Source: Croceicoccus naphthovorans
GTDB taxonomy: Bacteria > Pseudomonadota > Alphaproteobacteria > Sphingomonadales > Sphingomonadaceae
Assembly: GCF_001028705.1 (NCBI RefSeq)
Contig: NZ_CP011770.1
Location: forward strand, 1,987,501-2,051,500
Direction of reading: 5' to 3'
Length of the DNA: 64,000 bases
Shown here: piece by piece, positions 41,816 through 64,000 of the stretch
Numbering within the stretch: the first letter of the stretch is position 1
Layout of the letters: the number at the start of each line of letters is the position of its first letter
Made by a program: the position numbers and the translations under genes
The notes under the pieces: model-generated
What the model was told of the DNA's origin: nothing
Databases searched by the model: none
What the model saw: only the letters and a program-made list of their open reading frames with translations

Positions 41816-43273
41816 CTATTTTCGCATGGCAAGATTATAGGCCTTCTGCTCGGTGTAGCTCAGCATCTCCTCGATGCCTTCTTCACGCCCCGTGCCGCTG
41901 TTCTTCATTCCGCCATAGGGCATGGCGGGGTAATGCGGTCCGACGCTGTTGATCCACACATAGCCGGAGCGCACGCGGCGCGCGGCGGCGAAGGCGTCGT
42001 CGATGTTGTTGGCATAGATCGACGCGGTCAGGCCGAGGTCGGTCGCGTTGGCGATCGTGATCGCCTGGTCGAGCGTCGACCATTTCATTACCGAAAGAAC
42101 CGGGCCGAACACCTCCTGCTGCGCGATACGCATCGATTGCTCGACGTCACCAAACAGCGTCGGCTGGACCCAAAAGCCCTTGCGGAACTCCTCTCCCTCG
42201 GGCCGGCCGCCGCCGGCGAGCAGCCGGGCGCCGTCCTCGCGCGCGTTTGCGATATGGCGCAGAACCTTGTCGTACTGACCCTTCGAATTGATCGCGCCCA
42301 TCTGACTGGCCGGATCCATCGGATCGCCCACCCGGATCGCGCGGATGCGCTCGACCAGCCCAGCGACGACATCGTCATGGATCGATTCGTGCAGCAGGAG
42401 CCTGCTGGTCGATCCGCACGACTGGCCCTGCCACGAGAAGTTCATCCCGGCGATCGCGGCGTCGATCACGGTCGCCGGATCGACGTCGGGGAAGGCGATC
42501 AGTGGGTTCTTTCCGCCAAGCTCCAGCGTGACGTGCTTGACCGCGCTCTCCGCCGCCATGCGCTGAATCGCCATGCCGGTCTCGACTGAACCGATAAACG
42601 CGATCCGCTTGACACCGGGATGGCGCACCAGCGGCGCGCCCGCGCCCGCTCCGGTGCCGGTGACGATATTGAACACGCCCGGCGGCAGCGCATCGCGCGC
42701 GATCTCAGACAGGATCAGCGCGGAGAGCGAGCTCGTCTCGGGCGGCTTTACCACCACCGAATTGCCGGCCATCAGCGCGGCCGCGGTGCGGGCGGTGGCG
42801 AACATCACCGGATGGTTGAACGGCACGATCCGAGCGACCACGCCGTAAGGCTCGCGCGTGGTGAAGTGCAGGTTGCCGGGCGTCGCCGGGATCGTATCGC
42901 CCTTCAGTTCATAGGCGAGGCCAGCATAATAGTTCATCCCCTCCACACCGGTGCGCACGTCGCCGCGCATCGGCGCGATCGTATTGCCGGTGTCGCGGAC
43001 CTCGACCTCCAGCAGCTCTTCGGCGCGTTCCAGCATCTTGCGGCCGAACGCGCGGAGTGCCTCGGCGCGGGCGGCGACGCCGATCCCGTTCCACGCCGCC
43101 CACGCACGATCCGCCGCCTCCACCGCCCGGGCCACGTCGCGCGCGTCGCCATTGGGAATGCGCCCGATCACCTCCTCCGTCGCGGGATCGACCGAATCTA
43201 TCCATTCGCCGCTCTCGCTGGCCACCAGTTCGCCGCCGATCAACATGTGCGACGCCGTCGTCACCGGGTTCAT
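41816..43273 (-). CDS. NAD(P)-dependent aldehyde dehydrogenase
   Basis: 485 residues, normal length. Catalytic Cys in NFSWQGQSCGSTSR and general-base Glu in VTLELGGKNPLIAF are intact, and the cofactor motif is FIGSVETGM. Being in a cluster with a hydratase-aldolase, it may oxidise the aldehyde that the aldolase releases, as NahF does for salicylaldehyde; that is inference. A copy of the shared palindrome (43315-43330) lies 42 bases upstream of its ATG, so it probably belongs to the TetR regulon. Confidence 0.92.
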   Translation of the reverse strand: MNPVTTASHMLIGGELVASESGEWIDSVDPATEEVIGRIPNGDARDVARAVEAADRAWAAWNGIGVAARAEALRAFGRKMLERAEELLEVEVRDTGNTIAPMRGDVRTGVEGMNYYAGLAYELKGDTIPATPGNLHFTTREPYGVVARIVPFNHPVMFATARTAAALMAGNSVVVKPPETSSLSALILSEIARDALPPGVFNIVTGTGAGAGAPLVRHPGVKRIAFIGSVETGMAIQRMAAESAVKHVTLELGGKNPLIAFPDVDPATVIDAAIAGMNFSWQGQSCGSTSRLLLHESIHDDVVAGLVERIRAIRVGDPMDPASQMGAINSKGQYDKVLRHIANAREDGARLLAGGGRPEGEEFRKGFWVQPTLFGDVEQSMRIAQQEVFGPVLSVMKWSTLDQAITIANATDLGLTASIYANNIDDAFAAARRVRSGYVWINSVGPHYPAMPYGGMKNSGTGREEGIEEMLSYTEQKAYNLAMRK

Positions 43274-43314
43274 TAGGTCTCTCCAGCTTTCTGGTTATGC
43301 AGTTGTTCAAATTT

Positions 43315-43330
43315 AATGGACGTGTCCATT
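43315..43330. promoter_or_regulatory. Palindromic operator, copy A
   Basis: AATGGACGTGTCCATT has perfect seven-base arms around GT. It is in front of the aldehyde dehydrogenase gene. The same palindrome recurs at 44934 and, in weaker form, at 53124, 54321 and 55194. Confidence 0.8.
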
Positions 43331-43387
43331 TCTAGGGCGCTGGACGATCGCGTCAACCTTTCGGATGGCGCGGCCCGAAATTTGCCG

Positions 43388-44818
43388 TCAGCCGCCGCGT
43401 TTTGCGTTGCGGCGCAAGATCGGGACCGCGCCGCTCGATAGCCCGATTGCCACTGCGAGGGCAGCCATGCCGGCGGCTGTCGCGAAGGTGGCCCTGAGTC
43501 CGTGCGCCGCGGCGAGTCCGCCCGGAGCTCCATCGTGCGCGGTGGCGGAAAAGATCGAGGCCATCACCGACGCGCCGGTGACCAATCCGATATTGCGCGA
43601 CAGGTTCATCAGTCCGGCGAAGGTGCCGCGCGTTGCAGAAGAGGATTTCGCCATCACCGCGGCGTTGTTGGAGATCTGAAACACGCCATAGCCGCCCATC
43701 ACCACGATCAGCGAGCCGATGAAGCGCGGCAGGCCGACGATCCCCTCGCTGAAAGCCAGCCCCGCCGCTCCCGCCGCCATGATCGCCAGCCCGGCAAGGC
43801 TCATCGCGACGATGCCGAGCCGGTCGACCAGCCGCCCGATCGGCACGCCCCCGACAGCCGAGATGACCGGCCCGACCGAAAGCGCCAGCCCCGCCTGGGC
43901 GGGTGTCATGTGCAGACCCTCGACCAGATAGAAGGGGCCGACGACCAGCGTCGCCATGATCACGGTCGAGCCGATCACGCTCATCGCCAGATTGCCGCAC
44001 AGGGAGATGTCGCGGAACATCCCCATCCGCAACAGGGGATCGGCGGCACGCCGCTCGACCAGAATGAAAGTTGCCACGCCGACCACCGCGAGCGCAAGCG
44101 CGATGATGTTGCCGGCGGCGAAGCGTCCGCTCGCAAGCGTGGCCGCGTAGCAATAGGCGCACAGTGCCGAGATGAGCAGAAAGGTGCCAGCCCAATCCGG
44201 CCGCCACGGCGTGGCCGCCGGATGGAGCGTTCGGGGCACCGTGCGATAGACCATCCAGGCGATCGCGATGCAGACCGGCACGTTGACGAGAAACAGTGCG
44301 CGCCAGCCCAACCCCGCGATCAGCAGCCCGCCCAGTGACGGCCCGGCGGCAGTTCCCAACCCAGACATCGCGCCCAGCAAGCCCAGCACGCTGCCAAGTC
44401 GTGCAGGGCGCACGATGTCGCAAACAAGCGCAAACGCCAGCACCAGCATGATCGCGCCGCCCATACCTTGCAGCGCCCGCGCCGCGATCAGGAACCAGAA
44501 GCTCCATGCCACGCCCGCGCCGATCGAAGCTAGGCCGAACAGTGCCAGTCCGGCGAGCAGCAGGCGCTGTCGGCCCACGCTGTCCGCGAGGCGACCAGCA
44601 TTTATGATCAGGCTGATGACCGCGAGGAAATAGGCGATCACGATCCATTGCGCTTGCGGGAAGCTGATCCCGAAGGTGCGCGACAGCGTCGGCAAGCCGA
44701 CATTCGCCACGCTGCCGCCCAAAGAAGACAGGAAGATCGTGGCGGACAAGCTGGCAATGGCGCCGGGCGAAGATTTCGCCAGCCTGCCTCCATCTCCGTT
44801 ACCGCCAGTGTCGTTCAA
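43388..44818 (-). CDS. MFS transporter, DHA2-like
   Basis: 476 residues with about 14 hydrophobic helices. Motif A is GRLADSVGRQRLLLAG, and motif C-like PSLGGLLIAGLGWRALF follows. It probably moves an aromatic acid or pathway product. I use a TTG start at 44818, because GGAGG sits six bases upstream; frames further upstream (to 44923) add Arg-rich residues without similarity. It diverges from the Rieske operon across operator copy B. Confidence 0.85.
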   Translation of the reverse strand: MNDTGGNGDGGRLAKSSPGAIASLSATIFLSSLGGSVANVGLPTLSRTFGISFPQAQWIVIAYFLAVISLIINAGRLADSVGRQRLLLAGLALFGLASIGAGVAWSFWFLIAARALQGMGGAIMLVLAFALVCDIVRPARLGSVLGLLGAMSGLGTAAGPSLGGLLIAGLGWRALFLVNVPVCIAIAWMVYRTVPRTLHPAATPWRPDWAGTFLLISALCAYCYAATLASGRFAAGNIIALALAVVGVATFILVERRAADPLLRMGMFRDISLCGNLAMSVIGSTVIMATLVVGPFYLVEGLHMTPAQAGLALSVGPVISAVGGVPIGRLVDRLGIVAMSLAGLAIMAAGAAGLAFSEGIVGLPRFIGSLIVVMGGYGVFQISNNAAVMAKSSSATRGTFAGLMNLSRNIGLVTGASVMASIFSATAHDGAPGGLAAAHGLRATFATAAGMAALAVAIGLSSGAVPILRRNAKRGG

Positions 44819-45116: not shown

Positions 45117-46475
45117 GTGACCGAGCAGGCCTTTGCCGTTCCCGTTTCGATCGAAAACATGGTGGACGATCTGCGCGAGGGACTACTCCCCGCTGCGGTG
45201 TTTCACGATCGTGAAGTCTACGATCTCGAGTTGCGGCGCATCTTCGCGAAATCCTGGGTGTATATCGGGCATGAGACCGAAATCCCGAACCGCGGGGATT
45301 TCGTCACCCGCAACATTGGCGAGGATCCCTTCATCCTGATTCGCGACGAACAGGACGAGTTGCGCGTGCTACTCAATGCCTGCCGCCACCGCGGCGCACA
45401 GGTGTGCCGGGTGCAAGCGGGCAATACCAAGGGTTTCGTCTGTCCATTCCATGGCTGGGCGTATCGCAATAGCGGCGAATTGATCGGCGTGCCGGTGCGA
45501 AGCCAGGGATATGCGTCGCTGGACCTCAAGGAATGGAATTTGTTCGCAGCGCCGCACGTCACCAATTACATGGGGCTGATTTTCGCCAACCTCGATCCGG
45601 ATGCCGTGCCGTTCGAAGAGTATCTCGGCGACTACAAATGGTATTTCGACATCCAGTTCGCGCTGTCCGACGGCGGCATGGAGGTGCTGGGCGAGCCGCA
45701 TCGCTGGCTGGTCGATGCGAACTGGAAGCAGGGCGCGGAGAATTTCTGCGGCGACAGCTCGCATACTCAAATGACCCACCGATCGGTGCTGGAAGCCGGC
45801 ATCATCGACAGCGTCGCTGCCGGGGCGCCCAAGGAGGGAACGGGCCTCCATGTCCATGATTGCAGCGGCCATGCGATCAGCATCCGTCAGCTCCCCGGCG
45901 AGGCACCGTTCATCTCCTACCCGGAAGAGGTGACCCACCATTTCCATACCGGCGTGCTTAGCCAGGACCAGTTCGATCTGGCCAAGCGATCGCTGCTGCA
46001 CAACGGCACCTTGTTTCCCAATTTCTCCTTCCTCCATATTGGCCTGAGCGACAGCCCGCAAAAGCCGCAGACAGGGTTTCTCACACTGCGCGTATGGCAG
46101 CCCAAGGGGCCGGGCCAGATGGAAATCTGGAACTGGGTGCTGGCACCGAGAGAGGCCTCTCCCGAGTATAAGCGCCGTGCCTATCAGGTGGGAATGAGCA
46201 GTTTTAGCCCCTCGGGCAGCTTCGAGCAGGACGATGTCGCGGTGTGGCCGGGCGTCACCCGCACCGCCGGCACTGTGTTCGCCGAGCTCAACAAGGTGCG
46301 TTTCAACTATCAGATGGGAATGGGGGACATGAGCACCAGCAAACCGCTGACGGACTGGGTCGGACCAGGCGTCGCCAACTCGACCAATGCGGGCGAGGGC
46401 GGCCTGAGGACGTTCCATAAGACCTGGTACGAACGCATGACCAACACCAAGATCGAGATCGGCGATCATGACTGA
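45117..46475 (+). CDS. Aromatic ring-hydroxylating Rieske dioxygenase, alpha subunit
   Basis: 452-residue catalytic subunit. The Rieske 2Fe-2S ligands are Cys89, His91, Cys109 and His112. The mononuclear iron site has His216 and His221, with the bridging Asp213 (GDSSHTQMTH), and a third acidic ligand likely in SFEQDDVAVW. It would add O2 across an aromatic bond to give a cis-dihydrodiol. The beta subunit overlaps its end. The start is GTG at 45117 with a GGAG-like site. No ferredoxin or reductase gene is next to it. Confidence 0.93.
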   Translation: MTEQAFAVPVSIENMVDDLREGLLPAAVFHDREVYDLELRRIFAKSWVYIGHETEIPNRGDFVTRNIGEDPFILIRDEQDELRVLLNACRHRGAQVCRVQAGNTKGFVCPFHGWAYRNSGELIGVPVRSQGYASLDLKEWNLFAAPHVTNYMGLIFANLDPDAVPFEEYLGDYKWYFDIQFALSDGGMEVLGEPHRWLVDANWKQGAENFCGDSSHTQMTHRSVLEAGIIDSVAAGAPKEGTGLHVHDCSGHAISIRQLPGEAPFISYPEEVTHHFHTGVLSQDQFDLAKRSLLHNGTLFPNFSFLHIGLSDSPQKPQTGFLTLRVWQPKGPGQMEIWNWVLAPREASPEYKRRAYQVGMSSFSPSGSFEQDDVAVWPGVTRTAGTVFAELNKVRFNYQMGMGDMSTSKPLTDWVGPGVANSTNAGEGGLRTFHKTWYERMTNTKIEIGDHD

Positions 46476-47022
46476 AGCGGCGACCATCCATCCCGCGGCT
46501 GCGCCTGCGAGCCAGCTGGTCGATATCACCCTCCAGCAGGCTTGCGAGGAATTCCTCAAGAAGGAAGCCGAGTATCTCGACGATCGCCGGTTCGCCGAAT
46601 GGTTCGAGCTGCTCGATCCGGCGATCGATTATTCAGCGCCGGTGCGAACTGCCCGCGAGAACTGGGACGGCACGGGTATCAGTGGCACCGCCTTCTACCT
46701 GAAAGAGGATCATGCCTCGATCGAAATGCGCGTAAAGCGACTTCGCTCGCGCTATGCTTGGTCGGAAAGCCCGGCGACGCGTACGCGGCGCATGGTCTCC
46801 AACATCCGCGTGACGCCGCACGGCAGCGATCCGGCACTGGTGGCGGCGCGCAGCAACCTGGTGGTCTTCTGCCATCGTGGCGACGCGGCGCACCCTCAGA
46901 TTCTCACGGCCGAGCGGTTCGACGAGATCCGTATCGGCACCGAAGCGTCACGGCTCGTCAAACGCACCGCCATCCTCGATTCCACGGTGCTCGGCCTTGA
47001 ATCGCTGTCGATCTTTCTCTGA
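46468..47022 (+). CDS. Aromatic ring-hydroxylating dioxygenase, beta subunit
   Basis: 184-residue SnoaL-like beta subunit that shapes the alpha3beta3 complex. Typical residues are ACEEFLKKEAEYLDDRRFAEWFELLDPAIDYSAPVR and RTRRMVSNIRVT. It overlaps the alpha gene by eight bases and is followed after eight bases by the decarboxylase-like gene, so it lies in one operon. Confidence 0.92.
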   Translation: MTEAATIHPAAAPASQLVDITLQQACEEFLKKEAEYLDDRRFAEWFELLDPAIDYSAPVRTARENWDGTGISGTAFYLKEDHASIEMRVKRLRSRYAWSESPATRTRRMVSNIRVTPHGSDPALVAARSNLVVFCHRGDAAHPQILTAERFDEIRIGTEASRLVKRTAILDSTVLGLESLSIFL

Positions 47023-47030
47023 GGCGGCGC

Positions 47031-48020
47031 GTGGCAAGACTCTCGCTCAGCTATGCGGGCCACCTCTCGGACCGCGTCCGCGCTCTCTATCATGGCACGG
47101 TCGTGCCCGAGGGAATCGACCTGCACTTTCTTCCGATGTCGCCTGTGCAGGCGTTCAACCGCGTGTTGCGCGGCGAATTCGCTTGCGGCGAGATGTCGTT
47201 CTCGACCTATGTTCTGCGTGTCGCGCAGGGCAACGCCCCGTTTGTCGCGATCCCGGTTTTTCCTTCGCGCACGTTCCGCCACGGCGCGATCTATGTCAAC
47301 GCGGCCGCCGGCATTGCCGCGCCTGCCGATCTGAAGGGGCGGCGCGTGGGCGTGCCCGAATATTCGATGACCGCAGCCGTCTGGGCGCGGGGCGCGCTGA
47401 TGCACGAATATGGCGTCCAACCGGGTGACATTCATTGGATCACCGGCGGACTCCAAACAGCGGGCCGCCGCCCGCTCACCGAAGTGCGAATCGACGGTGT
47501 CAAGATTGAGCATGAGGAGCAGCGGGCGCTGAATAATATGCTCGCGGACGGCGCCATCGACGCGCTGATCGCACCGCAGACGCCGCCGGCGCTTCTCGCT
47601 GGCGATGCGCGGATCGGCTATCTCTTTCCCGACGTGCCGAGCGTCGAGCGTGCCTATTTCGCGAAGACCCGCATTTTTCCGATCATGCATACCGTCGTTA
47701 TCCGCCGCGACGTGTGGGAACGCGATCCCTGGATTGCGATTAGTCTCCAGCAGGCGTTCGAACGGAGCAAGGCGAACTGCTTGGCCGAACTGGCTATCGA
47801 CGAGCCGCTTCCCATATCGCTGCCTTGGATCGGGCAATATGTTCGCTCGATCCGCGATACGTTCGGCGACGATTTCTGGCCCTATGGTGTCGAACCCAAC
47901 CGGCCCACCATTGAGGCGCTGTGCGCCTTTCTCCATGAGCAAGGGCTGGTGTCGCGCCGAGTCGAGGTCGATGAACTGTTCGCGGCCAACGTCCAGTCAA
48001 ACGCTGGTATCCGCCTGTGA
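47031..48020 (+). CDS. 4,5-dihydroxyphthalate decarboxylase-like protein (Pht5 family)
   Basis: 329 residues of periplasmic-binding-protein fold. The pattern LSYAGHLSDRVRALYHGTVVPEGIDLHFLPMSPVQAFNRVLRGEFACGEMSFSTYV and the later RIFPIMHTVVIRRDVW match Pht5-type decarboxylases, which remove CO2 from an ortho-dihydroxylated aromatic acid. It has no signal peptide, as for Pht5. GTG start. The next gene, a Pht4-type dehydrogenase, overlaps it by four bases. The exact substrate is inferred. Confidence 0.8.
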   Translation: MARLSLSYAGHLSDRVRALYHGTVVPEGIDLHFLPMSPVQAFNRVLRGEFACGEMSFSTYVLRVAQGNAPFVAIPVFPSRTFRHGAIYVNAAAGIAAPADLKGRRVGVPEYSMTAAVWARGALMHEYGVQPGDIHWITGGLQTAGRRPLTEVRIDGVKIEHEEQRALNNMLADGAIDALIAPQTPPALLAGDARIGYLFPDVPSVERAYFAKTRIFPIMHTVVIRRDVWERDPWIAISLQQAFERSKANCLAELAIDEPLPISLPWIGQYVRSIRDTFGDDFWPYGVEPNRPTIEALCAFLHEQGLVSRRVEVDELFAANVQSNAGIRL

Positions 48021-49222
48021 ACGATCGGGCGATGCCGACGATGCGGCTGGGAATCATCGGTCTGGGCGGTGCCGCCAAGCAGATGGTGCCGAGCTTCCTC
48101 AGCCATCCGTATGTCGCGATCACTGCCGCCGCCGATCCGCGTGATGATGCGCGCAGTGCCTTCGCGGCCGAGTTCGGCGCGCGCACCCACGCGACAGCGG
48201 AGGCGCTGTGCGCCGATCGGGAGGTGGACGTGGTCTATATCGCTACGCCCCATCAGATGCACCGCGATCATGCCGCGTTGGCGGCGCGTGCGGGAAAGCA
48301 CATCATCATCGAGAAGCCGATGGCGCTTACGCTGGAAGAATGCGGCGACATCATCGCGGTTGCGGAAGCGAACGGCGTCCACTTGCTCGTCGGCCATACG
48401 CATGCCTTCGACGCGCCAATCCTCAAGATGCGCGCTTTGATCCGCGAAGGCGTGATCGGGCCGGTTTCGATGATCAATTCGTGGAACTACGGCAATTTCC
48501 TCTACCGTCCCCGTCGGCCTGAGGAATTGCGCACCGACGCGGGCGGCGGCATCATCTACAACCAGGTTCCGCATCAGGTAGACGTGGCGCGCCTGCTCGG
48601 GGGCGGCATGGTGCGCAGCGTGCGCTCGATGGCTTGGACGCTCGATCCCACCCGGCCGACCGAGGGGGCGCACGTTACGTTCCTGCAGTTCGAAAACGGC
48701 AGCGCAGCGTCGCTGGTCTATAGTGGATACGACTATTTCGACACCGACGAGTTCCACTACTGGATCGGCGAGTTGGGCGAGCCCAAGCGCCCCGATTGTC
48801 ATGCAGCTTCGCGCAGAGCGCTGGAGGCGATGACAGGCACCGGCTCGGAAGTCGCGGCCAAGGCTGGGGGCGGCTTCGGCGGCGGCCGCCGGCTGACAGT
48901 TCCACCCCAGAACGAATGGAACCACCCGCATTTCGGCGTGACGGTCGTCAGCGGGCCTGACGGCGATCTACGGCAGTCGGCACGTGGTGTCACACATTAT
49001 GGCAGGCGGGGCGCGGTCGAGCATCCGCTCGATCCGCCGCGCGTCTTTCCGGACAAGAGCGGCGTCATCGACGAGATGTACGACGCCTTCGCCGGGCTGC
49101 GCCCAATCCTGCACGACGGCGCCTGGGGGCGAGCGACAATGGAAGTAAGCGAGGCGATTCTGCGGTCCGCGCGCGAAGGGCGCGAAGTCGGCATGTCGCA
49201 CCAAGTACCGGTTAGGGATTGA
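48017..49222 (+). CDS. Gfo/Idh/MocA oxidoreductase, Pht4-like dihydrodiol dehydrogenase
   Basis: 401 residues. The N-terminal Rossmann fold (MRLGIIGLGGAAKQMVPSF) and EKPMALTLEEC with the conserved Lys are intact, followed by the beta-sheet substrate domain. Pht4, which oxidises the cis-dihydrodiol of phthalate, belongs to this family, and its pairing with a Pht5-like decarboxylase and a Rieske dioxygenase supports that role. A GTG start is translationally coupled to the upstream gene. Confidence 0.8.
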   Translation: MNDRAMPTMRLGIIGLGGAAKQMVPSFLSHPYVAITAAADPRDDARSAFAAEFGARTHATAEALCADREVDVVYIATPHQMHRDHAALAARAGKHIIIEKPMALTLEECGDIIAVAEANGVHLLVGHTHAFDAPILKMRALIREGVIGPVSMINSWNYGNFLYRPRRPEELRTDAGGGIIYNQVPHQVDVARLLGGGMVRSVRSMAWTLDPTRPTEGAHVTFLQFENGSAASLVYSGYDYFDTDEFHYWIGELGEPKRPDCHAASRRALEAMTGTGSEVAAKAGGGFGGGRRLTVPPQNEWNHPHFGVTVVSGPDGDLRQSARGVTHYGRRGAVEHPLDPPRVFPDKSGVIDEMYDAFAGLRPILHDGAWGRATMEVSEAILRSAREGREVGMSHQVPVRD

Positions 49223-49236
49223 GGAGAGTAGTCTTG

Positions 49237-50232: not shown

Positions 50233-50675
50233 CGATCGGCGTCCCCATCAAAGACGCGGCGCTGCGCGCCGAACTCGAGACGCTGATCACAGAGCACGCC
50301 TATCGGCTCGACATGAACTGCTCCGAAAATCTGGCCGAGCTCTATACCGAGGACGGGCGCTTGCTTGCCCCCAACTTCGATTGCGATGGACCCGAAGCGA
50401 TCAATGCCTATGGCCGCGAGCGCGCGGCGGCGAAGAATCGCCGCGTCCGTCACGTCTGCACCAACTTCCGCTTCTGGGAGGACGGACCCGATCAGGCGCG
50501 CGGCCTCTGCTTCATCCTCCTATTCCGTTCCAACGGGCCGGAGCTGTCACCCGCCGAGCCGATCGCGCTGGCCGACGCGCACGATATCTATCGGCGTGGG
50601 CCGGATCGGATCTGGCGAATTCAGGAGCGCCGCATCGTCCTGTCGTTCGAATCCGCAGCACACAAATCGAGCTGA
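50229..50675 (+). CDS. NTF2/SnoaL-like protein
   Basis: 148 residues with a cone fold as in nuclear transport factor 2 and SnoaL (ELETLITEHAYRLDMNCSENLAELYTEDGRL...). Members include small isomerases, dehydratases and dioxygenase beta subunits, so its role here is open: a ring-processing step or a second beta-like subunit. GTG start, four bases of overlap with the aldolase gene. Confidence 0.75.
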   Translation: MTIGVPIKDAALRAELETLITEHAYRLDMNCSENLAELYTEDGRLLAPNFDCDGPEAINAYGRERAAAKNRRVRHVCTNFRFWEDGPDQARGLCFILLFRSNGPELSPAEPIALADAHDIYRRGPDRIWRIQERRIVLSFESAAHKSS

Positions 50676-54336: not shown

Positions 54337-54342
54337 TTTCTA

Positions 54343-55187: not shown

Positions 55188-55193
55188 TAATAT

Positions 55194-55209: not shown

Positions 55210-55232
55210 ATAGAAAATTTGGGAGGGGTGAT

Positions 55233-57454
55233 ATGAAGACGTTGATATCTGTCGCAGTCCTGTGCGGGTCGATCAGTTTGCCGGCGATGGCGCAAACCTC
55301 GCCGGCTGTCGCCGACCCATCGGCAAGCCCTGCGACGCCGGCCCCCGAAAACCAGGATGCGGCTGCGCCAAGCCCTAATGCTCAGGCAAATGAGGATGGC
55401 ATCGCCGATTCGTGGTGACCGCCACTCGTCGCGAGGAACGCCTGCAGAAGATTCCGGTCACGGTCACCGCGGTCTCGGGCGAGGCGCTCCAGTCGAGCGG
55501 GGTGCTCGACACTCGCCAGCTAACCCAGGTCGTGCCGGGTCTGGTCGGAAGCCGCAATGCCGGCGTGAACCAGCCGGTGATCCGAGGTGTCGGCAGCGGC
55601 GGCGTGGTCGGCGACGAATCGAGCATCGCGACCTATATCGACGGCGTCTACCAGCCCGATCCTTGGACCACCAATCTCGACTTGGTCGAAATCCAGCGCG
55701 TCGAAGTGCTGCGCGGTCCTCAGGGCACGCTGTTCGGCCGCAACGCCACCGGCGGCCTGATCAACATCATCACGCCTGATCCCAGTTTCGACTTCCGCGG
55801 CCATGTCGCGGCAAGCGCGGGCGTGTTGCGCGGCGCTGGGGATTATGATCTGCGCGGCTATGTAACCGGCGGGCTTTCCGACAAGATCGCGATCGATTTT
55901 GCCGGCCTCTACAAGAAGACAGACAATTATGTCACCGATCTGGTACGGGGCGACTTGGGCTACGGTGAGGATGCCTATTTCTCACTGCGGAGCAAGCTGT
56001 TGTTTCGGCCCAGCGAAAGTGCACAGTTCGTACTCACTGGCGACTATGCCAAGCGTGATGGCGGTTCCAACGCCAACCAACTCTACCAGAACAACACGGT
56101 CGCACGCTCCTATCCGGGCGTAATCCTCCCCACCGGGCCATGGCAGGCTGCGTACAACTACGAGCCTCAGCTCAACATGGAGCGCTTCGGTCTCACCTTG
56201 CAATCGCGCTTCGATACTGGATCGGTCGGGATCGAGACCGCCACGTCGTATCAGAACGGCGAGATCTACCAGCAGCAGGATCGGGATTCGTCCAACATCA
56301 ATCTTGGGCTGGGCCAAGTGAACACGCGCCAACGAAGCTTCACTCAGGAAATTCGCGTTCTGTCGAGCAGTTCCGGTCCGTTGCAATGGCTGGCCGGCGC
56401 CTATTTCTATACCAGCCACCTCGACGGCACCGTGCCGACTACGACGCCTTCGCGCGTGCCGCCGCCGACGCTGCCGACCCTCTCAACGACGACGACGTCG
56501 CCTGACGTGCGTGTGTCCTCACTCGCCGGCTTCCTTGAGGGCACCTATTCGCTGACCAACACGCTGTTCCTGACTGCCGGCGGTCGCTACACAACCGAGG
56601 TGCGCAAGTTCGAGCAGGCTTCGAACGGCGTGGCCCTGTTTCCGCAGCAACGAAGCCGCTTCGAGAAATTTACCTATCGCGGCGCGATCCGCTGGCAGTT
56701 CGATCCCGACGTCAACATCTATCTAAACTACGGCACCGGGTTCAAGAGCGGCGTCTATAACGGCGTCGGCACCTCGCCCAAGCCTACCCGACCCGAGAGT
56801 CTCACCTCCATTGAGGGCGGTATCAAGGCCGATCCGGCTCGATGGCTGCGGACGAACTTGTCGGTCTTCCATTACGACTATAAGGACCTGCAGGTCAGCG
56901 CGCGCGACCCGTTCACCAACCTTGTGCTCCTCCAGAATGCAGCGACGGCCAAGATCTATGGCGGCGAGCTCGAACTCACCCTCATGCCGACGCGCGACCT
57001 GAACTTCACCGGCAAATTCTCTTATCTTCACGGCGAATACGAGAAATTCCCGCTCGCCCAAGGATTTACTCCCAATGCGAACGCCACCGGCAACACCGCG
57101 GTCATCGCCGACGTGTCGGGTAAACGCATCGTGGTGGCGCCGCGAACGGCCATGAACCTCGCTGCAGATTGGTCGCACGAATACGAAGTGGGCCGCTTTG
57201 GCGCGCGCCTGAACTTCTACCACAGCGACCGAATCTACTACGACTTCACCAACAATTTTTCGCAGAAGCCCTATTCGCTGCTCAATGCACAGGTTTCGTT
57301 CACGCCACCCAGTGAGAGCTTCAGCTTGAGCCTAGCCGTGACCAACATCACCAATGCAATCGTCTATCAATCGCTTCGCGTCAACGCGAGCGGCACCGAC
57401 GGTATCCTTGAGAAGCCGCGCGAAGTGAAGGGAACGATCCGCTTCAACTTTTGA
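55233..57454 (+). pseudogene. TonB-dependent outer-membrane receptor, frameshifted after the signal region
   Basis: A signal peptide (MKTLISVAVLCGSISLPAMAQ) and an Ala/Pro-rich linker end at ANEDGIADSW and a stop at 55416-55418. The receptor resumes in another frame from GTG at 55412 as VTATRREERLQKIPVTVTAV. Inserting one base near 55408 restores the usual ADIVVTATRREE. The plug (TRQLTQVVPGL, VIRGVGSGG, VEVLRGPQGTLFGRNATGGLINI) and a full beta-barrel ending in TIRFNF are otherwise intact. It would take the aromatic substrate across the outer membrane. A real inactivation or a sequencing error; the second frameshift of this kind in the window. Confidence 0.85.
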
Positions 57455-57514: not shown

Positions 57515-58444
57515 TCAGACGCCTTGACCGCCGCGTTTCTCCATCGCGGGAAGCGCGGCGGTCACCGTTTCCACGAATTGCATCGTCGTCGCGCTCGCCT
57601 GCTTGTGCCGCCAGGCGAGGCCGAAACGGACGTCGGCAAGGCCCGGTGCCTGCGGCGGCGGCTGCAGCGGACGAAAGGCCACGCCCCGCATACGCAGCCG
57701 CTCGGCCGAGGCCGGGACTATCGCGACGCCCTCGCCGCATGCAACAATGCCGATCACGGCCTCGGTAGTGGGCGCTTCGTGCGTGATCGTCGGATCGAAA
57801 CCGGCGAGACGGCAAAGCGCCTGCAGATCCGCGTGGACGTTGAAGCCGCGCGTCGGCTCATAGGCGACGAACCCACTGGAATCGAGGGCGTCAATTCCGA
57901 TGGCGCCGCTGTTAACGAGCAGCGGATGGCCAAGCGGAAGCGCGACGATCAGGGACTCGCTGTAGACGAAGCGCGTCTCGATCAGTTCGTCGAAAATCGG
58001 CAGCCGGACGATGCCGACATCGATCTCGCCCGAGCGCAGCGCCTCGATCTGGTGAAGCACCGACATAGCGTGAAAGACGATCTCGACTTCGGGGGTGGTT
58101 TCGCGGAAGCGTCGTACCAGCGCGGGGACCAGCGCGTAGACAGTCGATCCGCCGAAGCCAATATTGAGGGTCCCGCTCAGCCCCTCGGCGGCACGGCGCG
58201 CGCGCTCCGATCCGTCGTCCAAGATTTCCAGAGCCTTGCGTGCGTCGGCTACGAATACCGTGCCCGCCGCCGTGAGCGCAACATGGTGCTTGTCACGATC
58301 GAACAGGCGTGCGCCGATCTCGTCCTCAAGTTCGCGGATCGCCCGGCTGAGCGGGGGCTGCGAGACGTGGCACCGTTGCGCCGCCCGGGTGAAGTTCAAC
58401 TCCTCGGCGACAGCTATAACATATCGCACTTGGCGCAGATCCAT
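57515..58444 (-). CDS. LysR-family transcriptional regulator
   Basis: 309 residues, the HTH in [40 protein letters not shown] matching the CatR/BenM-type branch, and a type 2 periplasmic-binding effector domain. It diverges from the lower-pathway operon starting at 58538, with a dyad and a -10 sequence between, so it probably activates that operon when a ring-cleavage intermediate is present. Confidence 0.93.
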
Positions 58445-58481: not shown

Positions 58482-58537
58482 GTATTTCACTCATAGTGCC
58501 ATCTCTCACACTACGCGTCGCGACGAGGAGAGTGGAA

Positions 58538-59092
58538 TTGAGTAATCGTATCGCACGGATGGAATTCGACGCGCTGGCGCCGCGCGTTCAGGACGTGCTT
58601 CGCGCGCGGGTCGATCGGCTCGGCTATCTGGGCGAGTTCTTCAAATGCGTCGGCGTGCAGCCTGATGTGCTGGCTCCGTTCATGGAGATGACCGAGGCGC
58701 TGAAGAAGGCCTTGCCGGACCGGCTGACCGAAACCGGTGCGCTGACCGTCGCAAAGCTGTTCGACAATCGCTACGAACTTCACCAGCACGAGCGGCTGGC
58801 AAAAAAACTGGGCTTTGGCGAGGAATGGGTGGCGGCGGTCGAGCAGCTCTCGCCGCAGGACGCCCCCTGTCTTTCGGACGCGGAGCGTGCCGTTCAGCGC
58901 TTCGTCGTCGCGATAGTCGAGCGCAGCGGCCAGGGCGTCTCCGCTGAGCGGGAAGCGTTGATCGATGCGATCGGGCCGGAACAGACGATCGCCGTCATGT
59001 TCCTAGTCGGCCGCTACATCACCCACGCGATGATTGTGAACGGGCTGGAACTGGCGCCGCCGGTGCCGTCGATATTCGAGGCCGGCACTTGA
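58538..59092 (+). CDS. Carboxymuconolactone decarboxylase-family protein
   Basis: 184 residues, all-helical CMD/AhpD-like. Conserved region: AKLFDNRYELHQHERLAKKLGFGEEWVAAVE; the CxxC of peroxidase-type AhpD is lacking, so it is closer to decarboxylase or unclassified members. The start is TTG at 58538, with AGGAGAG upstream; a GTG at 58496 is possible. It overlaps the next gene by four bases. Its chemistry in this pathway is unclear. Confidence 0.78.
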   Translation: MSNRIARMEFDALAPRVQDVLRARVDRLGYLGEFFKCVGVQPDVLAPFMEMTEALKKALPDRLTETGALTVAKLFDNRYELHQHERLAKKLGFGEEWVAAVEQLSPQDAPCLSDAERAVQRFVVAIVERSGQGVSAEREALIDAIGPEQTIAVMFLVGRYITHAMIVNGLELAPPVPSIFEAGT

Positions 59093-60084
59093 CCCAGGGG
59101 ATTTGGATCTCCGAGGCCGAGGTCGTCTCGGTCATGGCGTTGCCCGAGGCGATCGACGCCTTGCGCGCCGGGCTTCGCGAAGAGGCCGCCGGCCGCGCAA
59201 GCAACATGGTGAAAACCCACGCCGCCTGGGCGAACGGCTCTACGCTGCACGCGATCGGCGCGGTGTTCGAAGGCTGGAACATCGTCGGCGCGAAGACATG
59301 GGCCCATACGGCAGGAGGCGCGATGCCCCTGTTGATGTTGCTCGACGCCGGCACCGGTGCGCTCGTCGCGCTGATCGAAGCGTTCGCGCTTGGCCAGATG
59401 CGCACGGGCGGGATCAGCGGTGTGGGCACCGACGTGATGGCCCGGCCCGACGCATCGCGCCTGGCTATGATCGGTGCCGGCAAGCAGAGCATTACTCAGG
59501 TCGCCGCAGTTGCGGCGGTCCGGCGGCTCGACCGGGTCACCGTGTGGAGTCCGACGGCGGCCAATCGCGAGGCGCTTGCCGCCAAGGTCGAGCAGAAGCT
59601 GGGCATCGAGGCGATCGCCACCCAGACGCTTGACGAGGCGCTGGACGCCTCAGATATCGTCACTCTGGTCACGCGGGCGCGCGAGCCGGTCATTACGCGG
59701 GATATGCTGGCGCGCGGCGTGCACTTGAACGCCGTCGGCGCGATCACGCCCGAGCGGGTGGAGTTCGAACCATCCCTGCTCGAACGCGCCACCCTCATCG
59801 GCGCGGACTCCGTTCCCCAAGTGCGCAAGCTCAGCCAGGAATTCATGATCGCGTTCGGCGACGACGAAGCGCAATGGGCGCGGCTTCAGCCGCTGTCCGC
59901 GCTGGTCGCTGGCGACAGCGTACGGCCAGCCGATGCCGATCTGACCGTCTTCAAGGCGATGGGCATGGGCATTTCCGATCTGTCGCTCGGCATCGAGATT
60001 TTCCGACGGGCTCGTGAGGCCGGGCTCGGCCGCGCCATTCCCCCGATCATTCGCCAAGCGCCGCGCCTGACGCTGAACCAATAG
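59089..60084 (+). CDS. Ornithine cyclodeaminase/mu-crystallin family protein
   Basis: 331 residues. The dimer domain (MVKTHAAWANGSTLHAIG, with a likely catalytic Lys) leads to a Rossmann fold (LAMIGAGKQSITQVAAVAAV). Family members include imine and ketimine reductases and deaminases. Within an aromatic operon it may act on an amino-substituted intermediate, or on a keto acid; neither can be shown. The start is TTG, coupled to the previous gene. Confidence 0.85.
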   Translation: MTQGIWISEAEVVSVMALPEAIDALRAGLREEAAGRASNMVKTHAAWANGSTLHAIGAVFEGWNIVGAKTWAHTAGGAMPLLMLLDAGTGALVALIEAFALGQMRTGGISGVGTDVMARPDASRLAMIGAGKQSITQVAAVAAVRRLDRVTVWSPTAANREALAAKVEQKLGIEAIATQTLDEALDASDIVTLVTRAREPVITRDMLARGVHLNAVGAITPERVEFEPSLLERATLIGADSVPQVRKLSQEFMIAFGDDEAQWARLQPLSALVAGDSVRPADADLTVFKAMGMGISDLSLGIEIFRRAREAGLGRAIPPIIRQAPRLTLNQ

Positions 60085-60098
60085 AAGGATTTTTCGCC

Positions 60099-61193
60099 AT
60101 GAGCAGCAGCGTATTCGTCGATGCCACCGGCCCGATCCCGGAAAAGGAAGCGCCCTGGGAGCCGATCGTCATCTCCAAGGCGGCGATCGACGCCGAGATA
60201 TCGCGCCTCGCCGCGCTTCCGCAGCCGGCCAATGGCCGCCGCCGCTCCTATTTCCGCCACCCGATGAACCGTCGCTCGAACGGCCTCGCGCCCGGCATCG
60301 AAGTCGCGCTCGATGTTCTACTGCCGGGCGAGGAGACGGCAACCTTCCGGCAGAATTCGACGCAGGTGAATTTCGTTATCCGGGGCGAGGGCGAGACCGA
60401 GATCAGCGGTCAGCGCCGTGCCACCGCGCTCCACGACGTATGGAACACGCCGTCGATGCGGATTTATCGCCACAAGAATAACAGCGAACAAGTCTATGCG
60501 CGGCTCACCTATTCCAACGGCGCGCTGCTCGACATGCTCAACATTCATGTCGTCGAGGAAAACCCCCAGCCGATGCTGAAGTCCATCGACCGCGAAGAAG
60601 GCGGCGAGGGCGAGGACAATCGCCGCACCAGCCCATATGGCACTTTCCAGCTCACCGAGGAAGGCGCCTGGCTGATGCCGTACGAGCGGCTGATCAATCC
60701 ACCTTCGGTCACCAGCCCCGCGCTATATTGGCCCTGGGAACAGGTGAAGGAGCATCTCGACAAGCTTGAGGCGCTGGGCAAGGACTATATCGGCCGCCGC
60801 TTGTACCTGCTCTACAACCCGATGACCGGTCGCACCAACGGCACGACGCCGAACTTCTTCGCGACGATGACCGTGCGTCCGCCCAAGATCGTCGATCGCC
60901 CGCACCGCCATTCGTCTGCGGCAGTGAACTATTATTTCTCCGGCTCGGGCCGCTCGACCGTCGAGGGCAAGACCTATGAGTGGAAGGCCGGCGACCTGAT
61001 GCTTTCCGCGCCCGGCTGGTCGGTCCATAACCATGCAAGCTACGACGAGCCGGTATATGAGCTGACCATTCAGGATCAGCCGCTCAACATCGCGATGGAA
61101 TCGCTGCTGTGGCAGGAAAGCCTGAAGGAGCCGCCGGCACTGCTGGGGGCTGAGGAGGGCTTTGCCACCAATCGCGCCGCGGTGTCAGGCTGA
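60099..61193 (+). CDS. Bicupin ring-cleavage dioxygenase-like protein (gentisate/salicylate family)
   Basis: 364 residues, the length and two-cupin build of gentisate, 1-hydroxy-2-naphthoate and salicylate 1,2-dioxygenases. In those the metal ligands HxH and a later His are in the N-terminal cupin. Here the N-terminal cupin has FRQN instead (LPGEETATFRQNSTQVNFVIRGEG). The C-terminal cupin does have the triad: His269, His271 and His310 or His312 (DRPHRHSSAAVNYYF and GWSVHNHAS), at the 39-residue spacing. So the metal site seems to have moved. Next come HpaH-, HpaI- and SSADH-like genes, as expected after salicylate-type cleavage. Confidence 0.82.
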   Translation: MSSSVFVDATGPIPEKEAPWEPIVISKAAIDAEISRLAALPQPANGRRRSYFRHPMNRRSNGLAPGIEVALDVLLPGEETATFRQNSTQVNFVIRGEGETEISGQRRATALHDVWNTPSMRIYRHKNNSEQVYARLTYSNGALLDMLNIHVVEENPQPMLKSIDREEGGEGEDNRRTSPYGTFQLTEEGAWLMPYERLINPPSVTSPALYWPWEQVKEHLDKLEALGKDYIGRRLYLLYNPMTGRTNGTTPNFFATMTVRPPKIVDRPHRHSSAAVNYYFSGSGRSTVEGKTYEWKAGDLMLSAPGWSVHNHASYDEPVYELTIQDQPLNIAMESLLWQESLKEPPALLGAEEGFATNRAAVSG

Positions 61194-62035
61194 TGGCGCA
61201 GGCGCGCCGCATCGACGACTTCGGCGGCGTCACGCTCAACGACGCGGCGATCGCCGATGCGGCGAACGCCCTGGCGACGGCCGAGCGCGACCGCAGCCAG
61301 ATCCGCCTGCTCAGCGAGACCTATCCGGGGATGACGATGGACGACGCCTATGCCGTCCAGGCGGCCTGGGTGCGGATGAAGCGTGCGGCTGGCGATCCGG
61401 TGATCGGCTGGAAGATCGGCCTCACCTCAAAGGCGATGCAGGCCGCGCTTTCGATCGACATTCCCGATTCGGGCGTGCTGCTGGGCAGCATGGCTTTCGC
61501 CAACGGCGCCGACATTCCGACCGGGCGTTTCATCCAGCCGCGGGTCGAGGCAGAGATCGCCTTTGTGATAAAGGAGACGATCGACCCAGCCCGCGCGTCG
61601 ATCGAGGCGATCCTCGCCGCGACCGATTATGTCGCACCCGCGCTAGAGATACTGGATACGCGCGTCACCCGGCTGGATCCGCACAATGGCCGGCCGCGCA
61701 CCATATGCGACACGATCGCGGACAACGCAGCCAACGGCGGCATCGTAATGGGTGAGCCGGTGCGCGATCTCGCCGGCCTAGATCTGCGCTTCGTTGGCGC
61801 CGTGGTATCGCGCAACGGCGAGGTCGAGGAAACCGGCCTCGGTGCCGGCGTGCTTGGCAATCCGCTGGTGTCCCTTGCCTGGTTGGTGGAGCGGCTGGCG
61901 GCCTATGGAGATCGCATCGAGGCAGGCCAGATTGTGCTGTCCGGATCGTTCATCCGCCCCGTCGAGGCTCCGCCGGGGAGCCGCTTCCTGGGGGATTTCG
62001 GCGGCTTCGGCCGCGTTTCCTGCTGCTTCCTTTGA
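61193..62035 (+). CDS. hpaH: 2-oxo-hept-4-ene-1,7-dioate hydratase-like protein
   Basis: 280-residue HpaH/MhpD-type hydratase. Conserved: [40 protein letters not shown] and [22 protein letters not shown]. It would add water to the dienoate from ring opening. It shares one base with the cupin gene, and the aldolase follows. The real substrate could differ. Confidence 0.88.
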
Positions 62036-62058
62036 GACCGGGCCAGGATCGGGACGTC

Positions 62059-62859
62059 ATGCACAATCCCTTCAAACAGGCGATCGGCGAAGGTCGCGCG
62101 CAAATCGGCCTCTGGCAGGCTCTGGCTTCCCCTTATTGCTGTGAGATCTGTGCGGGCGCCGGCTTCGACTGGTTGCTGATCGACGGCGAGCACGCACCGA
62201 ACGACCTGCGATCGGTGCTGGCGCAGCTGCAGGCTGCGGCTGCCTATCCGGTCGAGCCGGTAGTCCGCCTGCCAGTCGGCGACGCCGTCTTGGTCAAGCA
62301 ATATCTCGATCTGGGTGCGCGGACGCTGCTGGTGCCGATGATCGAGAACGCTGGCGCCGCGGCGGCGATGGTTCGTGCCACCCGCTATCCGCCCCACGGC
62401 ATTCGCGGCGTAGGCTCCGCGATCGGGCGGGCTAGCCGCTGGAACCGGCATCGGGACTATCTGCAGGCCGCCGCAGCCGAAATCTGCCTGCTCGTCCAGA
62501 TCGAGAGCCGTGCGGCGCTCGCCGATATCGACGCGATCGCGCGTGTCGAGGGCGTCGACGGCGTCTTCATCGGCCCGTCAGATCTCGCCGCCGATCTCGG
62601 CCATCTCGGCGATCCCATGCATCCCGAGGTGCAGGCGATGATCGAGACCGGCATCGCCGCGGTGCGCGCCGCCGGCAAGCCGGTGGGCATGCTAATCGCC
62701 AATGAGCAGGCGGCACGTCGCTATCTTGGACTCGGCGCCAACTTCGTCGCGGTTGGCACCGATGTCACGCTGCTCGCGCGGGGGGCGGAGGCGCTGGCCG
62801 CAAGCTTCCGCGACGTGCCCGCGCAGGCCGCGGCCCCGCCTCCTCCCAGCGTCTATTGA
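62059..62859 (+). CDS. hpaI: 4-hydroxy-2-oxoheptanedioate aldolase-like protein
   Basis: 266-residue HpaI-type class II pyruvate aldolase of the HpcH/HpaI family. Active-site features: [26 protein letters not shown] (the conserved Arg), [36 protein letters not shown]. It splits the hydroxy-oxo diacid to pyruvate and succinic semialdehyde. The ATG at 62059 is chosen over an upstream TTG. Confidence 0.88.
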
Positions 62860-62880
62860 AAGTCAGGAAGGCAATCGACA

Positions 62881-64000
62881 TGCGGACCGAGGTCATCTCG
62901 ATCAATCCCGCCACCGGCGAGGAAATCGCGCGCTACCCCGCGCTCGACGGGCCTGCGCTGGAGAAGGTCGTGGCAGCGGCATACGCCGCCTTCGCCAGTT
63001 GGCGGACGAACGGCGTCGATCGGCGCGCCCAGGCCTTTCGCCGCCTGGCCGACATACTGGAGGCTCGCCGCGACGCGCTCGCCCCGCTGATTACGCTCGA
63101 AATGGGCAAGCCGATAAGCGCGGCGGGCGCAGAGGTCGACAAATGCGCGCGGCTGGTGCGCTGGTACGCCGATAATCTGGCCAAGCTGCTCGCCGATGAG
63201 ACGCCCGATATCGGCGGCGACGGCACGGCGGCGATCAGCTATCTCCCGCTCGGCGTGGTGCTAGGCGTGATGCCATGGAATTTCCCGCTCTGGCAGGTGC
63301 TGCGCGCCGCCGTGCCGATTATGTGCGCAGGTAACGGCTTTCTGCTCAAACATGCCGACAATGTTCAGGGTAGTGCCTGGGCGCTTAGCGAATGTTTCCG
63401 GGCGGCGGCCTTCCCCGAGGGTTTGTTCGGCATTGTCCACGCCGATCGCGCTCTGGTCACCGGTCTGCTCGCCGACCGTCGCATCGTCGGCGTCACCGTC
63501 ACCGCGGGTGTCGCCGCGGGTGCCTCGCTGGCGGCCGAGGCCGGGCGCCACATCAAGAAGTCGCTGCTCGAGCTGGGCGGGTCCGATCCCTTCATCGTCC
63601 TCGCAGATGCCGATCTCGATCTTGCCGTCGCCGCTGCCGTCGAAGCGCGGTTCCAGAACTGCGGGCAGGTGTGCATCGCGGCGAAGCGGATCATCGTCGC
63701 CGCCCCGATCATGGAAGCGTTCGTCGCCCGGTTCGTCGAGGTGGCGCGCGGGATCCGGTACGGAGATCCCCTCGATCCCGACACGTGGATGGGTCCGATG
63801 GCGCGGGTGCGCGCCCGGTCCGATGTTCACGGCCAGGTCTGCCGCAGCGTGGCGATGGGCGCGCGGCTGTTGCTCGGCGGCGAGATCCCGGAAGGGCCGG
63901 GAGCCTACTACCCGCCCACGGTCCTGGTCGACGTGACCCGCGACATGCCCGTCTGCGCCGAGGAGACGTTCGGACCCGTCGCCGCGATCATGACCGCCGA
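62881..64000 (+). CDS. Succinate-semialdehyde dehydrogenase, partial, runs off the right edge
   Basis: At least 373 residues from ATG 62881, which follows AGGAAGG. SSADH-type ALDH: PWNFPLWQVLRAAVPIMCAGN, catalytic Glu in LLELGGSDPFIVL and catalytic Cys in FQNCGQVCIAAKRI, with a later EETFGPVAAIM. It would oxidise succinic semialdehyde from the aldolase to succinate. The usual TGS in the cofactor loop reads TAG (VTVTAGVAAGAS), an unusual change. Confidence 0.92.

Follow-up and report, generated by a model that had tools for sequence, protein, structure and literature searches.

A duplicated two-module gene island in Croceicoccus naphthovorans, possibly for degradation of a naphthoate- or naphthalene-dicarboxylate-type acid

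Background

Genes resembling parts of several aromatic degradation pathways are crowded together at one end of a 64,000-nucleotide stretch of DNA from Croceicoccus naphthovorans (hereafter the window: bases 1987501-2051500 of contig NZ_CP011770.1, our contig C1, in a genome of 3.86 Mb), which raises the question of whether they form one pathway and, if so, for which substrate. The island spans positions 41816-64000 and continues beyond the window to ~72.4 kb (window numbering); a first-pass annotation had described it as a candidate complete catabolic island for a bicyclic aromatic acid. The answer that we cautiously favour is that it consists of two cooperating modules, bordered by mobile elements, which would degrade a bicyclic acid of the naphthoate or naphthalene-dicarboxylate type. 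This answer builds on the observed gene content and protein families, on duplication, synteny and physical linkage of the modules, and on the predicted fold and conserved metal triad of a bicupin ring-cleavage dioxygenase.

Results and Discussion

Two modules, present twice in the genome

The upper module is a plus-strand row at 45117-54107 that encodes the alpha and beta subunits of a Rieske dioxygenase, a Pht5-like decarboxylase, a Pht4-like dehydrogenase of the Gfo/Idh/MocA family (Gfo), a NahE/PhdJ-like hydratase-aldolase, a SnoaL-like protein, an MFS transporter, a TetR-type regulator and a VOC dioxygenase; the minus-strand genes at 41816-44776, for an aldehyde dehydrogenase (ALDH1) and a further MFS transporter, belong beside it. 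The lower module (57515-64256) comprises a divergent LysR-type regulator, a carboxymuconolactone-decarboxylase-like (CMD) protein, an ornithine-cyclodeaminase-family (OCD) dehydrogenase, the bicupin, HpaH, HpaI and a dehydrogenase of the succinate-semialdehyde type (SSADH). All enzyme types named in the first-pass annotation are present within the island as long open frames with family, PDB and equivalog matches, but its gene list had missed the SnoaL-, CMD- and OCD-like genes and an insertion sequence (IS), and the SSADH gene, which it placed inside the window, ends outside, at ~64256.

A search of the genome with the hydratase-aldolase retrieved a 73% identical copy at C1:142989-143966, which is part of a second, diverged enzyme set extending over ~19 kb (C1:136.9-156.3 kb; loci L023 and L024). 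Enzymes of both modules are 63-85% identical between the two copies: in the upper module Rieske alpha 81%, beta 65%, Pht5 75%, Gfo 75%, aldolase 73%, SnoaL 70%, TetR 77%, VOC 63% and ALDH 83%, and in the lower module, which is inverted in the second copy, SSADH 67%, HpaI 80%, HpaH 78%, bicupin 85%, OCD 78%, CMD 67% and the adjoining LysR orthologue 73%. Two SDR genes and a DLH protein are also found in this neighborhood. Since both modules occur in the second copy in a differing orientation, they have been kept together through divergence and rearrangement.

Distribution and synteny in other genomes

A species-level genome collection was scanned with an aldolase alignment, which confirmed 148 relatives; the best 80 were kept, corresponding to 79 loci, of which 48 (L025-L072) were mapped and 31 (L073-L103; 22-36% identity) were left unmapped. 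In one candidate search scoring was limited to the 8000 candidates sharing most words. A Pht5-like gene (at least 54% identity) is present in 14 of the 48 mapped loci, with a Gfo gene adjoining in 13 of those, and the 14, together with an Agrobacterium leguminum plasmid, genome G017 and the two copies of the window's genome, make up the 18 upper clusters discussed below. These clusters occur in Alpha- and Betaproteobacteria and in three Actinomycetota (Pseudonocardia, Streptomyces radicis and Actinophytocola). Gfo stands beside the Pht5-like gene in 17/18, Rieske alpha is found in 14/18 (it is not visible in L026, L036, L056 and L060), a SnoaL-like gene in 9/18, the bicupin in 6/18 and a class II aldolase-family protein (AldolII) in 5/18, one of the latter at only 29% identity; bicupin and AldolII occur together in 0/18. 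Contig ends cut several loci, so that absences weigh little.

The six bicupin-linked clusters show three arrangements and comprise the window, the second copy, G017, L025 and L027, all sphingomonad-type, as well as L047 from Pseudonocardia. In L047 the genes form the row extradiol dioxygenase-hydratase-aldolase-Pht5-Gfo-bicupin-ALDH-Rieske alpha-beta, in which a second bicupin lies between Gfo and ALDH. ALDH1 is a neighbor of the upper module in G017, L025 and L027 as well as in the window and the second copy, and orthologues of the MFS transporter beside it are 88% (L025) and 76% (L027) identical. In a 397-genome sample of the window's family, the aldolase (E 1e-90) is present in 2 genomes, the bicupin (E 1e-40) in 12 and a Pht5-like protein (E 1e-40) in 23, of which this genome and G017 alone exceed 60% identity; these two are also the aldolase genomes, and both are among the 12 with the bicupin.

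The second enzyme copy in the same genome and the synteny of the block in other genomes indicate that the genes are grouped beyond chance. The connection between upper and lower genes proposed at first pass is likewise supported: both modules are duplicated, the bicupin lies near six upper clusters, L047 has both in one row, and the two co-occur in the 397-genome sample. It might be argued that two unrelated pathways, the upper one for one acid and a separate ring-cleavage module acting on a different one, have been joined by insertion sequences. An IS element does lie between the modules and a conjugation-gene remnant at the island border, bicupin modules occur with other neighbors, and 12/18 upper clusters have no bicupin in view; however, the modules stand together in the second copy (in the other orientation), in G017, L025, L027 and L047, with only the TonB gene recognised between them in L027, and we regard two independent pathways as improbable.

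Proposed pathway

The substrate, the order of steps and every enzyme activity given here for the two cooperating modules are what we infer from this gene set. The Rieske dioxygenase would dihydroxylate the bicyclic acid, of naphthoate or naphthalene-dicarboxylate type, on its carboxylated ring, the Pht4-like enzyme would re-aromatise the dihydrodiol and the Pht5-like enzyme would take off a carboxyl; that the attacked ring bears a carboxyl is suggested by the Pht4/Pht5 pair, adjacent in all but one of the 18 clusters. The VOC dioxygenase would then open the diol ring and the hydratase-aldolase cut off pyruvate. As in the naphthalene pathway, opening of a fused diol followed by aldol cleavage leaves a hydroxyl and an aldehyde ortho to each other on the second ring. 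ALDH1 would convert this aldehyde into an ortho-hydroxy aromatic acid, and the cupin dioxygenases whose fold the bicupin shares act on ortho-hydroxy acids, so the bicupin may open the acid between the carbons bearing the carboxyl and the hydroxyl. The CMD- and OCD-like proteins might adjust the product (decarboxylation or isomerisation, and reduction, respectively), HpaH would hydrate it, HpaI would free another pyruvate, and the remaining C4 semialdehyde would be oxidised to succinate or fumarate by the SSADH-type enzyme. In this order most genes act once, in keeping with the chemistry known for their families.

An upper pathway of naphthalene-like logic that includes the Pht4- and Pht5-like enzymes, suggested from the start, agrees with the PDB relatives of four enzymes. 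The Rieske protein is an alpha-beta oxygenase of the naphthalene-dioxygenase type (PF00848 and PF00866), its alpha subunit being closest to Rhodococcus naphthalene dioxygenase (2b1x, 377 bits), followed by phthalate 3,4-dioxygenase (9jp5, 307 bits), and it has H216 and H221, which we take to be iron ligands, in 16/16 aligned sequences. The aldolase resembles in sequence the NahE type (6dao and 9frt are its best PDB matches), and K180, presumably the Schiff-base lysine, is invariant in 20/20 sequences. The Pht4-like enzyme has a 4,5-dihydroxyphthalate dehydrogenase as its best match, and 9jp7 is the sole PDB sequence match of the Pht5-like protein at E 0.01, which belongs to no Pfam family at E 1e-5. 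At the other end of the route both HpaH and HpaI exceed the NCBI equivalog cut-offs, which fits a C7 dioate of the kind expected earlier.

The same relatives could be read in a different order, in which the bicupin opens 1-hydroxy-2-naphthoate, hydratase-aldolase and ALDH make phthalate (as PhdI, PhdJ and PhdK would), and Rieske, Pht4, Pht5 and VOC enzymes finish as in phthalate pathways. Phthalate 3,4-dioxygenase is, after all, the second-best PDB relative of Rieske alpha, PhdJ ranks third among the aldolase matches, and a phdK-pht cluster is reported from Thalassospira in the accessible part of PMC9604089. Against this order, the genome has no PF00775 or LigB match (4/14 controls positive for each), a result with which a VOC-type cleavage would be compatible; HpaH and HpaI would be left without a role; the companions of the bicupin are OCD, CMD and HpaH/HpaI or FAH, whether or not an aldolase is near; and no bicupin is seen in 12/18 upper clusters, several of them cut by contig ends. 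We therefore think it very unlikely. An Aldolase_II family match is also lacking in the genome (12/14 controls positive), as it is in a protein search run with no control, and together with PF00775 and LigB this disfavors the usual protocatechuate endings, leaving a VOC-type ending unaffected. A phthalate/protocatechuate ending was set aside as the principal reading for the missing PF00775 and LigB matches.

The bicupin dioxygenase and the acid that leaves the upper module

The notable enzyme of the island is the bicupin, which resembles salicylate 1,2-dioxygenase (SDO) in predicted fold, at 16% identity to the SDO/gentisate 1,2-dioxygenase (GDO) type. Its metal triad HxH...H is found only in the C-terminal cupin (residues 269, 271 and 310), the N-terminal cupin having none; in SDO and E. 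coli GDO it is the C-terminal half that is vestigial. According to the accessible part of PMC10306065, salicylate and gentisate 1,2-dioxygenases have their catalytic metal in the N-terminal cupin (the S. pomeroyi GDO has two sites), a rule from which the bicupin departs, and Arg127 is described there as essential in SDO; Asn277 takes its place in 24/24 bicupins, and H312 is <90% conserved in this wider 24-sequence set. Accordingly, the proposal that this is an ordinary salicylate dioxygenase finds no support. The protein is also far under the NCBI equivalog cut-offs for GDO (64 of 442 bits) and MabB (78 of 650 bits), and the JGI name gentisate 1,2-dioxygenase, carried by 34 of the 120 close relatives listed (69-99% identical), may mislead. 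An OCD-like gene is matched in 19/20 and a CMD-like gene in 17/20 mapped bicupin loci, and these frequent partners point to steps so far without assigned enzymes. Two different members of the bicupin family lie in one stretch in L047 and in L161-L164, and in the latter the 5-7 kb that separate them include an FAH-family gene and a gene for an LLM monooxygenase; a further bicupin place, in genome G220, is outside the mapped loci.

Related clusters give a hint of the acid that leaves the upper module. In A. leguminum these upper genes are joined by AldolII, a 3-hydroxybenzoate 6-monooxygenase (571 bits, over the equivalog cut-off of 459), a gentisate-dioxygenase-type cupin (260 bits, under 442), MaiA and FAH; its AldolII scores best with the NCBI model of the 3,4-dihydroxyphthalate decarboxylase PhtC, at 74 bits against a cut-off of 200. 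A fragment of a comparable hydroxylase (130 bits, 188 residues) closes the Streptomyces locus L057, and four actinobacterial aldolase clusters (L054, L065, L066 and L070) with no Rieske or Pht5 match combine AldolII with two flavin hydroxylases. In a comparison of 32 loci (28 of the 48 mapped ones and 4 composite sources) AldolII is present in 11, of which 11/11 have aldolase and ALDH and 6/11 lack Pht5, which accompanies Gfo. For these related clusters the simplest chemistry is probably an upper route leaving a hydroxyphthalate-type acid, from which AldolII would make 3-hydroxybenzoate. With AldolII in place of the bicupin in five clusters, and the hydroxylase in that of Agrobacterium, the acid leaving the upper module may thus still carry a carboxyl. 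Should the window's island make this acid too, the bicupin would have to open a diacid; otherwise the substrate would differ.

The first possibility leads to a route with two decarboxylations, which we put forward tentatively and whose substrate would be a bicyclic dicarboxylate, for example the acenaphthene intermediate naphthalene-1,8-dicarboxylate. Pht5 would remove the carboxyl on the attacked ring, and ring opening and aldol cleavage would give a hydroxyphthalate-type acid; the bicupin, through its C-terminal active site, would open this diacid directly, replacing the AldolII and 3-hydroxybenzoate/gentisate route of the related clusters, whereupon the CMD-like protein would decarboxylate the product and the OCD-family enzyme reduce it to the HpaH substrate. 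If true, this would amount to a new aromatic ring-cleavage route and to new functions for three protein families. A rival is the mono-acid scheme of the first-pass annotation, in which Pht5 removes the only carboxyl of a simple naphthoate, salicylate is formed, and the bicupin acts as an SDO to yield 2-oxohepta-3,5-dienedioate for HpaH and HpaI. The shared fold and the C7 enzymes fit it, but the replaced arginine and the incompletely conserved H312 do not, it leaves CMD and OCD unexplained, and salicylate needs neither the AldolII of five related clusters nor the 3-hydroxybenzoate 6-hydroxylase that accompanies it, above cut-off, in one; we consider this scheme doubtful.

Several observations weigh against the two cooperating modules as proposed. 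Five of the six bicupin-linked clusters belong to one lineage (bicupin 85-100% identical) and are not independent, the co-occurrence of aldolase and bicupin in the family sample (p 8e-4, kinship ignored) rests on two genomes, one being the window's own, and bicupin-OCD-CMD also occurs without the upper module, 10/12 bicupin genomes having no aldolase at E 1e-90. Nothing in the second copy matches the window's MFS and TonB genes. As for the enzymes, the VOC dioxygenase scores far under every named cut-off (e.g. HpaD, 95.7 of 321.4 bits), the bicupin has no counterpart of the SDO arginine, and the OCD and CMD roles are guesses. The alignment of Rieske alpha catalytic domains contains no Arg or Lys that separates the 13 Pht5-linked from the 3 SDR-linked enzymes, so that a carboxylate pocket is unsupported. 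SDR genes lie in or near several upper clusters, so the dihydrodiol dehydrogenase may be another enzyme than Gfo; such NahB-type candidates are encoded at L010:12899-13696 past the window and in the second copy, and the Gfo/Idh enzyme holds the place in the row. Nor is the suggested completeness of the island supported: neither the ferredoxin nor the reductase of A. leguminum is matched in the window's cluster, the TonB receptor gene, correctly recognised as present, has its signal-peptide part and its body in different frames, and a NahD-type isomerase is absent from the cluster. Two queries (E 1e-5) detected a NahD-type protein solely at L011:2452-3138, ~15.5 kb past SSADH, and in none of the other 31 of the 32 loci. 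That locus is a separate nah-like block on the same contig (L011:1096-11926), which contains Rieske oxygenases, the DsbA-like NahD-type isomerase, a VOC dioxygenase, further oxygenases, the sole ferredoxin match and a 40% identical relative of the NahE-like aldolase with its own 326-residue frame; some of the lacking functions could come from there.

Relation to known systems

Taken together, this is a real, conserved and duplicated catabolic island, a variant assembled from known enzyme families. With the naphthalene upper pathway (nah; nar of Rhodococcus) it shares the alpha-beta Rieske dioxygenase, the VOC extradiol-type dioxygenase, the DHDPS-type hydratase-aldolase and the aldehyde dehydrogenase, but it differs in having a Gfo/Idh dehydrogenase in the row and an added Pht5-like decarboxylase, and in lacking NahD within the cluster. 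The Pht4/Pht5 pair recalls the phthalate pathways (pht, 4,5; PhtA-type 3,4-dioxygenase), whereas here the row continues with a hydratase-aldolase and the genome has no PF00775 or LigB ring-cleavage match. The bicupin is like SDO/GDO in fold and unlike them in the half that bears the triad, in Asn for Arg127 and in its low identity. HpaH, HpaI and the adjoining SSADH-type enzyme correspond to the 4-hydroxyphenylacetate (homoprotocatechuate) lower pathway, yet neither HpaF nor HpaG was recognised among the genes of the window's cluster, ALDH1 stays under the HpaE equivalog cut-off (426 of 638 bits), and ring opening would fall to a bicupin accompanied by OCD and CMD.

The metabolite logic of dihydroxylation, ring opening and decarboxylation is known from 1-naphthoate degradation via 2-hydroxyisophthalate and salicylate in CSV89 and from acenaphthene degradation via naphthalene-1,8-dicarboxylate in Acinetobacter AGAT-W, two routes for which the accessible parts of the reports give metabolites and name no genes. 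The island thus offers a testable gene set for naphthoate or naphthalene-dicarboxylate breakdown, and on our best reading its substrate range is bounded to acids of these types. As to the remark that no such cluster had been described, searches of open-licence papers, among them PMC6362003, PMC9604089, PMC8006333, PMC11705938, PMC5006600 and PMC10306065, turned up none, although the block itself occurs in other genomes. The accessible part of PMC10713820 gives a coking-plant origin for Novosphingobium album and Sphingobium arseniciresistens; the presence of the gene set in two phyla suggests a substrate that may occur naturally besides being a pollutant. Anthraquinones, coumarins, kynurenate and phenazine carboxylate were considered as natural candidates and set aside.

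Genes of the island and its surroundings

Table 1. Features of the island and its borders in window coordinates
Feature	Coordinates	Strand	Evidence
TraG/VirD4-type coupling protein fragment	40694..41215	+	Pfam T4SS-DNA_transf 106 bits, profile positions 255-385 of 468 only
Aldehyde dehydrogenase (ALDH1)	41816..43273	-	PF00171 508 bits
Putative MFS transporter 1 (start uncertain; open reading frame to 44923)	43388..44776	-	29% identical to annotated MFS transporter, A. leguminum
Rieske dioxygenase alpha subunit	45117..46475	+	PF00355, PF00848
Rieske dioxygenase beta subunit	46468..47022	+	PF00866 111.6 bits
Pht5-like decarboxylase	47031..48020	+	9jp7 (4,5-dihydroxyphthalate decarboxylase), E 2e-73
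Pht4-like Gfo/Idh/MocA putative dihydrodiol dehydrogenase	48017..49222	+	PF01408; best match 7wzd (4,5-dihydroxyphthalate dehydrogenase), E 2e-103
DHDPS-family hydratase-aldolase (NahE/PhdJ-like)	49219..50232	+	NahE-type 6dao E 9e-60, 9frt E 7e-59; then PhdJ 6dan E 4e-50
SnoaL_4/NTF2-like protein	50229..50675	+	PF13577 38 bits
Putative MFS transporter 2	50721..52091	+	37% identical to annotated aromatic acid/H+ symport family MFS transporter, Paraburkholderia
Putative TetR-type regulator (start uncertain)	52174..52914	+	39% identical to annotated TetR/AcrR gene, A. leguminum
VOC (type I extradiol-like) dioxygenase	53226..54107	+	PF00903 88.6 bits; best PDB 3b59, uncharacterised
IS element, DDE transposase in two overlapping frames	54322..55208	-	PF01609 63 bits
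TonB-dependent receptor	55191..57454	+	signal-peptide part (55191-55415) and body (55394-57451) in different frames
Putative LysR-type regulator, divergent from lower module	57515..58444	-	28% identical to annotated LysR, Paraburkholderia
CMD/AhpD-like protein	58496..59092	+	PF02627 22.1 bits, just below cut-off 23
OCD (ornithine cyclodeaminase/mu-crystallin-family dehydrogenase)	59089..60084	+	PF02423 144.6 bits
Bicupin ring-cleavage dioxygenase, C-terminal metal triad	60099..61193	+	predicted fold, conserved HxH...H
HpaH-type 2-oxohept-ene-dioate hydratase	61193..62035	+	TIGR02312 357.1 bits, cut-off 351.5; PDB 2eb4 E 5e-78
HpaI-type 4-hydroxy-2-oxoheptanedioate aldolase	62032..62859	+	TIGR02311 386.4 bits, cut-off 368.8
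SSADH-type aldehyde dehydrogenase	62856..64000, to ~64256 beyond window	+	NF010575 561 bits, under cut-off 855

The TonB receptor is encoded by a single frame in L025, L026 and L027, only a short piece of it being seen in G017 (L154), and its two-frame state in the window may be a sequencing error. Past SSADH the island continues with a second HpaH/HpaI pair, an SfnG-like LLM monooxygenase, a TonB receptor, an SDR and a DLH protein. The second HpaH (370.1 bits) is over the cut-off of its model and the second HpaI (363.4 bits) under it; these two and the monooxygenase (L010:7089-9898, window numbering ~64489-67298) have 92-100% identical counterparts next to the upper cluster of N. album (L028), and the monooxygenase is 99% identical in Novosphingobium naphthalenivorans (L026). 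The DLH-domain protein (L010:13753-14988), found also in the second copy, has an extra C-terminal part of ~185 residues and is matched in 5/18 upper clusters including a Streptomyces, an SDR adjoining in 4 of those 5.

By aldolase, the nearest named stretches are from a Sphingomonas metagenome-assembled genome (99%), N. naphthalenivorans (92%) and Hephaestia caeni (88% identical), from which the host can be judged sphingomonad-like. The TraG/VirD4-type fragment appears to be a mobile-element remnant bordering the island, and the IS element between the modules has ends with 36-nt inverted repeats (75% complementary). The former, together with further transposases downstream of the island, suggests that the region was put together by mobile DNA.

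Other occurrences of single genes gave less. On a plasmid of Sphingomonas sp. MEA3-1 (Pht5-like, 69%) no other upper gene was matched within the 28 kb examined, and the Pht5 neighborhoods of Sphingobium sp. AntQ-1 and Microbacterium sediminis have differing arrangements. A plasmid of Cupriavidus N-1 carries unannotated bicupin-OCD-FAH genes plus HpaH/HpaI-like genes, with no CMD match. Contig C2 (194,680 bases) of the window's genome has five Ring_hydroxyl_A places and resembles a sphingomonad catabolic plasmid. Elsewhere in the window we found a large CheB-CheR-PAS-HWE histidine kinase fusion (24174-27602) and a multicopper oxidase (9240-11129) with two tRNA genes near it (7670-7742 and 7790-7863).

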